This document shows, piece after piece, positions 21,359 through 24,164 of a DNA stretch of 64,000 nucleotides. The notes beneath the pieces are model-generated. The model did no database searches. It was not told the origin of the DNA and worked only from the letters and a program-made list of their open reading frames with translations. Where the stretch lies: the NCBI GenBank assembly GCA_945865365.1, contig CAMBDL010000001.1, positions 124,001 to 188,000 on the forward strand, given 5' to 3'. The translations under genes and the position numbers were made by a program. The stretch comes from Streptomyces griseus (lineage in GTDB: Bacteria > Actinomycetota > Actinomycetes > Nanopelagicales > Nanopelagicaceae). The first letter of the stretch is position 1. Each line of letters opens with the position of its first letter.

Positions 21359-22302
21359 CAGCTTTAGATTTCTCTACAACACTGGGAAATTCTTGGTTTC
21401 CTGCACCGATATTCACGGCTAGCGGATGCGCCAGTTCAGGGCGAGAGTTAGCGCAGTTTTTTCCGCTTCATTCAATCGGAGGCGTAGTAACAAAATCTGT
21501 TATGTCCAAGCCACGACACGGACGTCCAACTCCGCGAATGGCTGAAACACCTAGTGGAATGTTGAACTCTATCGGCCTACAAGGTCCTGGAATCGATGCC
21601 TTCATTGCCAAAGATATTCCGTATCTTCTGGAACAGAAAGCGCGAATTATTGTTTCGATCGCAGGAGAGACAGTTGAAGAGTATTCAACGCTGACACGCA
21701 AACTGCGCGGGATATCGGGAATAAGTGCGATTGAGGTCAACATATCCTGCCCTAACGTTGAAAATAGAGGATTGGTATTTGCTTGTGATCCCGAGGCATC
21801 ACGACGGGTTATAGATGGAGTACGTCGCACCATTGGCGGTGAACTTCCTATCATCGCCAAACTCTCACCTGACGTAACAGATGTGGTGCATATTGCACGT
21901 GGAGTAGTTGACGCTGGCGCCGATGCCGTTGCTCTCATTAATACAGTTTTAGGTATGGTCATTAATATTGAAACGTTAAGACCGCATCTTGGAGGAAAGA
22001 CAGGTGGTCTATCAGGTCCTGCTATTAGACCGATTGCAGTTCGGGCTATTTATCAAGTACATGCTGCATTACCTCAACTTCCTATCTTGGGTATGGGTGG
22101 AGTAGCAAGTGGGCGTGATGCCCTCGAGATGATTGCAGCTGGAGCAAGCGCGGTATCTGTAGGTACTGCAAGCTTCGGTAACCCCACAGCGCTACCGATG
22201 ATTCAAAGTGAGTTAAAAGAACTTCTAATCGCCAAGGGCTTTGCATCGCTGCGTGAAGCAGTTGGATTTGCTCATAGACCAGAGGACTCTGATGAACAAT
22301 AA
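21355..22302 (+). CDS. pyrD: Dihydroorotate dehydrogenase, class 1B catalytic subunit
   Basis: VNISCPNVENRG, AKLSPDVTDV, GMGGVASGRDALEMIAAGASAVSVGTA. Confidence 0.95.
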   Translation: MTALDFSTTLGNSWFPAPIFTASGCASSGRELAQFFPLHSIGGVVTKSVMSKPRHGRPTPRMAETPSGMLNSIGLQGPGIDAFIAKDIPYLLEQKARIIVSIAGETVEEYSTLTRKLRGISGISAIEVNISCPNVENRGLVFACDPEASRRVIDGVRRTIGGELPIIAKLSPDVTDVVHIARGVVDAGADAVALINTVLGMVINIETLRPHLGGKTGGLSGPAIRPIAVRAIYQVHAALPQLPILGMGGVASGRDALEMIAAGASAVSVGTASFGNPTALPMIQSELKELLIAKGFASLREAVGFAHRPEDSDEQ

Positions 22303-23005
22303 GGCTCCAATAGTTTTAGCGATTGACACATCTGATCTGAACACTGCCATTAGCTGGGTTAAGGCTACAGAAGACGTCGTATCGGTTTATAAGTTGGGCT
22401 TAGAGTTTTTTCTAACATTTGGTGGCGAAGGTGTACGAGCGATAACACAGAACACCGAGGCAGATATTTTTCTCGATCTTAAACTTCATGACATTGAACA
22501 CACGGTCGCTGGTGCTGCACGAGCAGTAAGTAGTCTAAAACCGAAGTTTCTTACTGTTCATGCCTCTGGGGGAGCGGCAATGATGAGAGCCGCTGCCGAT
22601 GCTCTACCCACCACTTTTGTAACGGGAGTAACAGTCTTAACTTCGTTATCTGAAATCGATGTGCAGAGCATCGGATTTAGAGATAACTCCTTAGAGAGTG
22701 CGGTTCGCTTGGCCAGCTTAGCGACCGCCGCAGGTGCTCGGGCAATTGTCTGCTCGCCTTTAGAAATCCAGGCGATTCGCCTCGCTGTTGGTGATGCAGT
22801 AACAATTATTACCCCTGGTGTACGACCGGCCGATGTCGCACACAATGATGATCAAGTACGAACAATGACACCACGAGAGGCTATAGACCGTGGTGCAAAT
22901 TTTGTCGTCATAGGTAGACCGATAACTATGTATTGGCAGCAAGGCGCTTCTGCTATGCGCGATCGTGCTCTTGAAATAGCTCATCAGATTAACTCTGTGC
23001 ACTAG
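22292..23005 (+). CDS. pyrF: Orotidine-5'-phosphate decarboxylase
   Basis: LDLKLHDIEHTV, ITPGVRP; ATG at 22292. Confidence 0.95.
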   Translation: MNNKAPIVLAIDTSDLNTAISWVKATEDVVSVYKLGLEFFLTFGGEGVRAITQNTEADIFLDLKLHDIEHTVAGAARAVSSLKPKFLTVHASGGAAMMRAAADALPTTFVTGVTVLTSLSEIDVQSIGFRDNSLESAVRLASLATAAGARAIVCSPLEIQAIRLAVGDAVTIITPGVRPADVAHNDDQVRTMTPREAIDRGANFVVIGRPITMYWQQGASAMRDRALEIAHQINSVH

Positions 23006-23014: not shown

Positions 23015-23887
23015 ATGGGCGCACCTCCACACTTAACTGCCGAACAACGTGCGATGGCCCTCGCAAAGGCGGCACAATCACGCAAGCGTCGAGCAGAAGT
23101 AAAAAATAAGGTTAAAAGTGGAGAGTTTTCAATTGATACTGTCTTAGAGATAGCGGCTAATGAAGACAGTGTTGGAAAGATGCGAGTAAGAGAGCTTTTG
23201 GAGGCGCTATCTGGAGTTGGAAAAGTTAGGGCAACCACTCTCATGGAGCGTTTGAATATCTCACCCACTCGCAGGATTCAGGGTTTAGGTCGTCATCAGT
23301 TAAAGCAGTTGCGTCATGAGTTTATGAAATCCACTCACGCAGTTGCCCCTGGCAAACTTTTAGTTTTGTCGGGTCCGGGTGGAGTTGGTAAGAGCACCGT
23401 TGCAAGCACCCTGCGTACATCTGGCGACTTCTGGGTCAGTATCTCTGCTACTACTCGTGCTCCACGAAGTAATGAACATGATGGAGTAGATTATTTTTTC
23501 ATCACTGATGAAGAGTTCTCTCGTCGTATCAAGGATGATGAGTTTCTTGAATGGGCGGCCTTTGCTGGTAGCCGTTATGGAACACCGCGATCTGCAGTTG
23601 AAGAGGCGCTGCTCAAAGGTAGGAACGTTCTTTTGGAGATTGAGATAGCCGGAGCCAAGCAGGTGAAGGCGCATCTAGCGCAGTCACTTTTAGTATTTCT
23701 AGAACCTCCCACGTGGGAGGAGCTGGTTTCTAGATTAGAGGGGCGTGGCACAGATGGGCCCGAGCGCAGAGCCGAACGCTTGGCCTTAGCGCAGGAAGAG
23801 TTGGCCGCCGCCTCCTTCTTTGACATCGTTATCGTTAATGACCAGGTCGAGCGGGTCGTTGAACAACTGATAGGATTGATATCTTGA
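23015..23887 (+). CDS. Fusion of actinobacterial IHF (mIHF-like, ~residues 1-103) and guanylate kinase (~104-290)
   Basis: mIHF-type LLEALSGVGKVRATTLMERLNISPTRRIQGLGRHQLKQLRHEF, then in the same frame GMK P-loop LSGPGGVGKST and RAPRSNEHDGVDYFFI; no stop codon between them. Confidence 0.9.
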   Translation: MGAPPHLTAEQRAMALAKAAQSRKRRAEVKNKVKSGEFSIDTVLEIAANEDSVGKMRVRELLEALSGVGKVRATTLMERLNISPTRRIQGLGRHQLKQLRHEFMKSTHAVAPGKLLVLSGPGGVGKSTVASTLRTSGDFWVSISATTRAPRSNEHDGVDYFFITDEEFSRRIKDDEFLEWAAFAGSRYGTPRSAVEEALLKGRNVLLEIEIAGAKQVKAHLAQSLLVFLEPPTWEELVSRLEGRGTDGPERRAERLALAQEELAAASFFDIVIVNDQVERVVEQLIGLIS

Positions 23888-23915: not shown

Positions 23916-24164
23916 ATGGATGGCATCACAAATCCACCAATTGACGAACTTCTAGAGAAGAGTGGCTCTAAGTACAGCCTTGTTCTTTACGCTGCAAAGC
24001 GCGCTCGTCAGATCAACGCCTACTACTCACAGCTCGGTGAAGGTCTCCTTGAATATGTCGGACCTCTGGTTGAGACACATGTGCATGAAAAGCCGCTCTC
24101 GATCGCCCTTCGCGAAATAAATGAAGGTCTTCTCACAATCGAAAATCTCGAACCAACGGCTTAA
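23916..24164 (+). CDS. rpoZ: DNA-directed RNA polymerase omega subunit
   Basis: [32 protein letters not shown]; downstream of gmk. Confidence 0.95.

Follow-up and report, generated by a model that had tools for sequence, protein, structure and literature searches.

A single open reading frame in the window, i.e. the 64,000-nt stretch of DNA that was analysed as a whole, encodes an actinobacterial IHF domain followed directly by a complete guanylate kinase (GMK). The predicted product combines an N-terminal mIHF-type H2TH DNA-binding domain with a short, probably flexible linker and a GMK that appears catalytically complete. With a probability of roughly 70%, it is one bifunctional protein that remains uncleaved and possesses both activities, the two domains acting independently of each other. 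The fusion gene, its parts and its immediate neighbors are as follows:

23015..23887, forward strand: ihf::gmk fusion gene, a single open frame of 290 codons followed by TGA, without internal stop
23027..23323, forward strand: IHF domain of the actinobacterial mIHF/sIHF type (residues 5-103, last residues LRHEF), matched by NF041260 (E=5e-36) and Pfam H2TH_5 (E=4e-25)
23324..23350, forward strand: linker MKSTHAVAP between the HMM-defined domains, in a region of low AlphaFold2 pLDDT
23324..23326, forward strand: in-frame internal ATG (within ATGA), candidate for the old gmk start, similar to the stop/start overlap (4 nt) seen in split relatives
23351..23878, forward strand: GMK domain (residues 113-288; P-loop SGPGGVGKST), matched by TIGR03263 (E=6e-63) and Pfam (E=5e-43)
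22241..23005, forward strand: pyrF (OMP decarboxylase), ending 9 nt upstream of the fusion gene (context)
23916..24164, forward strand: rpoZ (RNA polymerase omega), the next gene downstream (context)

In GTP synthesis, GMK is an essential enzyme, and mIHF is an essential nucleoid protein of mycobacteria. Both are represented over their full length: the actino_IHF profile NF041260 matched residues 5-103 with 123 bits (cut-off 60; profile positions 3-101 of 102) and TIGR03263 matched residues 113-288 with 212 bits (cut-off 160; profile positions 1-177 of 180), and Pfam agreed (H2TH_5, residues 33-103; Guanylate_kin, residues 114-286). The original prediction of two complete domains within one 290-aa frame, made by reading the DNA alone, is thereby confirmed, and the peptides that it quoted are present in the frame. 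NF041260 is classified at NCBI as an "equivalog_domain" model, which permits a match to a domain inside a longer protein. Since no stop codon separates the domains, IHF is not made here as a separate protein of ~105 aa, and each copy of it necessarily has a GMK domain attached. In the source genome (1.41 Mb draft, 92% complete), no further copy of either domain was found above cut-off. The fusion gene lies in the order pyrK-like, pyrD, pyrF, [ihf::gmk], rpoZ, coaBC, metK, which is the usual neighborhood in actinobacteria. Both domains are under purifying selection: where computable, dN/dS between the window and close relatives was ~0.03 for the IHF and the GMK portion alike, and synonymous sites approached saturation in this comparison.

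Structure prediction by AlphaFold2 yielded a mean pLDDT of 89 for the window protein and of 92 for a fused homologue from family f34. The pTM values were modest (0.61 and 0.66, respectively), as expected for two confidently predicted domains on a loose linker. A block of low pLDDT (62) at residues 101-110 of the window model corresponds to the linker, and no rigid interface between the IHF and GMK domains was predicted. Foldseek matched the model to the M. tuberculosis GMK Rv1389 (target TM 0.87); among the matches listed there were only GMKs, namely those of M. tuberculosis, Listeria and E. coli, and the IHF fold is assigned from the sequence and the predicted helices. Like the stand-alone GMKs described by Rv1389 and TIGR03263, the window domain scores above cut-off and has an intact P-loop and intact substrate residues (motifs SGPGGVGKS, TTR..R..E, Y-G-T and E-I/V-GA in the alignment), and its model superposes on 1z8f, 1s4q and 1znw. 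Unlike Rv1389, it carries a 112-residue N-terminal extension, which is the predicted DNA-binding domain.

By sequence, the IHF domain aligns end to end and free of gaps with SCO1480/sIHF (4itq, 6bek) and with mIHF (6tob). It shares with stand-alone mIHF (Rv1388) and sIHF (SCO1480) the full domain, the R86-R87 pair, the GLG..Q helix and the position directly upstream of gmk-rpoZ, and it retains R23, R26, K30, G69, G92 and Q95. In contrast to these proteins, it has no stop codon of its own, always comes with GMK and carries Gln89 in place of the third Arg of the RRxR motif. Two further residues that are near-invariant in split IHFs are changed, A60 to Glu (the split homologues mostly have Ala) and P66 to Ser. 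The three arginines of RRxR are presumably the residues reported to bind DNA in mIHF of M. tuberculosis, and the third is 96% conserved in split IHFs outside Nanopelagicaceae. Given its loss, DNA binding of the fused IHF may be weaker or altered.

An open junction such as this could result from a sequencing or assembly error, in which case the two genes would in fact be separate. Nothing at 23015-23887 supports this, and its probability is negligible. The proposed survey of relatives for fused versus split genes found an open fusion without stop or frameshift at the junction in 64/64 sampled genomes of Candidatus Planktophila (g1). Because every congener with good coverage shows the open junction, as do independent genomes, complete single-contig ones among them, it is neither a chance event nor a base-calling error. 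The one apparent fusion that did prove to be an artifact belongs to another family (f90, genome G950), where the junction is an assembly gap filled with a run of N; this candidate was rejected.

The fused architecture extends well beyond the genus. In the GMK-domain tree, a named Candidatus Planktophila record falls within g1, the genus of the window, and one g1 locus encodes a GMK domain identical to that of strain IMCC26103. Family f1 therefore corresponds to Ca. Nanopelagicaceae, and family f36 is interleaved with named Microbacteriaceae in the same tree. By hand count from the survey table, 128/149 Nanopelagicaceae genomes with a match carry the fusion, the remainder being split and belonging to genera g21, g23, g24, g27, g29 and g31. 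In Microbacteriaceae the fusion was present in 111/118 cases, with Pseudoclavibacter, Curtobacterium, Frondihabitans, Microbacterium, Leucobacter, Gulosibacter, Cryobacterium, Naasia, Agreia and Frigoribacterium among the named genera. A third family, f34, contributed 7/59 fused cases, and its genus g116 comprises fused and split species alike. The genes are split in Streptomycetaceae, Mycobacteriaceae, Micrococcaceae, Cellulomonadaceae and others; there they are adjacent and often overlap by 4 nt or are separated by one stop codon. Thus, the view that the IHF gene and gmk are normally separate neighbors is correct for most actinobacteria but fails for Planktophila, Nanopelagicaceae and Microbacteriaceae, and the presumed rarity of the fusion is not supported, given its near-universal presence in the latter family and its repeated origin. 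A search of open-access literature found no description of an IHF-GMK fusion, nor is one mentioned in the passages found in a 100-genome study and in papers on mIHF. The architecture must nevertheless be common in protein databases, as Microbacteriaceae are heavily sequenced, and many matches to guanylate kinase models in the fused taxa carry a predicted DNA-binding domain.

Trees of the GMK domain alone indicate that the fusion arose independently at least three times. The AU test rejected a single clade of the Nanopelagicaceae and Microbacteriaceae fusions (p 5e-9), of the Microbacteriaceae and f34 fusions (p 1e-9) and of the Nanopelagicaceae and f34 fusions (p 3e-5), and one origin for all fusions is therefore rejected between families at p 3e-5 or lower. 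One origin within Nanopelagicaceae (p 0.32) and one origin of the f34 fusions (p 0.44) were not rejected by this test. The Microbacteriaceae proteins (e.g. of Curtobacterium, Microbacterium, Leucobacter, Agreia and Frigoribacterium) have the same domains in the same order, likewise without a stop, but differ from the window protein in their separate origin, a longer linker, a diverged IHF N-terminus and KR..G instead of RR..R.

Split relatives suggest how the fusions may have come about. Where the two genes are split in Nanopelagicaceae, it is common for the IHF stop and the gmk start to share an ATGA, or for gmk to begin after a single stop codon; phylum-wide, many split pairs share one frame that is interrupted by a single stop. 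Such overlaps and single in-frame stops offer an easy route to fusion. Accordingly arranged neighbors, translationally coupled, would have lost the stop either through a 1-nt indel at the ATGA overlap or through loss of a single in-frame stop; the ATGA at 23324-23327 of the window could be such an overlap, left behind when the IHF frame shifted by 1 nt. In M. tuberculosis, deletion of mihF required that gmk and rpoZ be supplied, owing to polar effects, which demonstrates joint expression of the separate genes in this species (PMC6155035).

The internal ATG raises the possibility of two products, a full-length fusion and a free GMK initiated at 23324 that supplies most of the enzyme. As stated in the original prediction, 23324 is the only in-frame ATG of the linker; a TTG lies five codons upstream at 23309. 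Within the Planktophila clade of the window, the codon for Met104 is ATG in 32/34 and TTG in 2/34 loci, the ATGA looks like the stop/start overlap of split relatives, and MKSTHAVAPGK resembles an ordinary GMK N-terminus. On the other hand, synonymous variation in the codons preceding the ATG is not reduced as expected for a constrained ribosome binding site in these 34 loci, and the predicted Shine-Dalgarno pairing at 23324 is weak (-1.5 kcal/mol). The original prediction had pointed to the lack of a convincing signal here; the weakness was reproduced, but the gene's own start at 23015 has the same value and such signals are weak across the window, so it argues neither way. Moreover, translation of gmk in split relatives probably relies on termination-reinitiation, which a fusion would abolish. 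Finally, 18/106 fused loci have no ATG, GTG or TTG between the C-terminal helix of IHF and the start of GMK; five of them are from Nanopelagicaceae (four loci of Planktophila or its sister genus, and IMCC26103). In these 18 loci, no source of GMK other than the fusion is evident, which disproves a two-product gene as the general rule for fused loci. We therefore regard a predominant free GMK from the window gene as rather doubtful, while some additional free enzyme may be made from ATG 23324.

If the two-domain protein is made and retained as a unit, the IHF part would most likely bind and bend DNA while the GMK part converts GMP to GDP, each in its own right. Both would be present in forced 1:1 amounts, and some or all of the cellular GMK would reside on the nucleoid. 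We infer the absence of cleavage, the presence of both activities and the nucleoid localization of GMK from the gene and its predicted product. In a very abundant freshwater lineage as well as in the large, easily cultured Microbacteriaceae, IHF can be produced only together with GMK, and the old adjacency of mIHF, gmk and rpoZ is now directly testable for a functional link.

Whether the tether itself matters is a separate question. In a near-neutral operon fusion, the domains would keep their old separate jobs and the connection would have no effect. Such fusions are easily formed in one step from adjacent genes, and the variable linker fits this explanation: most fused Nanopelagicaceae have ~12 aa between the HMM-defined domains, but length (9-25 aa) and sequence differ between lineages. 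The same holds for the prediction of confident domains without strong overall pTM and for the coexistence of fused and split species in g116 of f34. Near-universal retention in Microbacteriaceae and in most Nanopelagicaceae is less readily explained in this way, and a 1:1 stoichiometry would be odd if IHF reached its abundance in mycobacteria, reported to be the third highest there (PMC3724605). We consider the odds of a neutral tether to be even.

Alternatively, the guanine-nucleotide or (p)ppGpp state may act on DNA binding, or GDP/GTP synthesis may be localized to the nucleoid, with this benefit having driven repeated fixation. This would fit the independent joining of these two genes, in identical order, on at least three occasions and the long retention of the fusions, the adjacency of the pair across the phylum, and the finding that (p)ppGpp inhibits GMK in several non-proteobacterial phyla (PMC6783271). 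Common substitutions in the fused IHFs point in the same direction: 74/77 fused compared to 15/58 split rows have another residue in place of the third RRxR arginine, and position 60 is acidic in 73/77 compared to 16/58. However, these strong raw counts reflect just 3-7 independent contrasts, three of them supported, and are not significant; a tie of the acidic residue 60 and the lost third Arg to the fusion is a lead, not a result. The split IHFs of g23 (f1; loci L068, L071, L074, L077 and L099-L101) likewise have Glu at position 60 and lack the third Arg, and this pattern may stem from secondary fission of a fused ancestor or from a change that preceded fusion. Further points against coupling are the ease of repeated neutral fusion, the absence of a predicted rigid interface and the complete loss of IHF in some lineages. 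Coupling is thus improbable, and marginally more so is the stronger claim that repeated fusion was selected for linking nucleotides to the chromosome or for GDP/GTP production at the nucleoid, the IHF changes being adaptations to it. The flexibly linked protein with independently acting domains remains our preferred reading.

The link between IHF and GMK is not always needed. The complete small-genome Microbacteriaceae G530, G608, G533 and G611 have GMK alone, and genome-wide no IHF above cut-off was found in these or in several genomes of families f34 and f5, whereas mIHF is called essential in mycobacteria. Genomes with GMK alone indicate that the GMK domain can work without the IHF domain. 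In loci L121-L125 (G608, G530, G533, G597 and G611), the IHF domain is lost and GMK starts within ~20 codons of the upstream stop. Loci L112, L113 and L117-L119 (f34) and L145 (f5) have GMK without detectable IHF in the genome, which extends the loss beyond Microbacteriaceae.

Two additional loci were noticed in the course of the survey. An AT-rich MAG from outside the class of the window (G921, family f52, locus L229) contains an open IHF-GMK frame of 287 aa; as one draft genome, it represents a possible further independent fusion. Another MAG, titled Bifidobacterium breve (L215, CAMDHH010000001.1), encodes a fused IHF-GMK whose GMK is 70% identical to that of the window, and it looks like a mislabelled Nanopelagicaceae genome.
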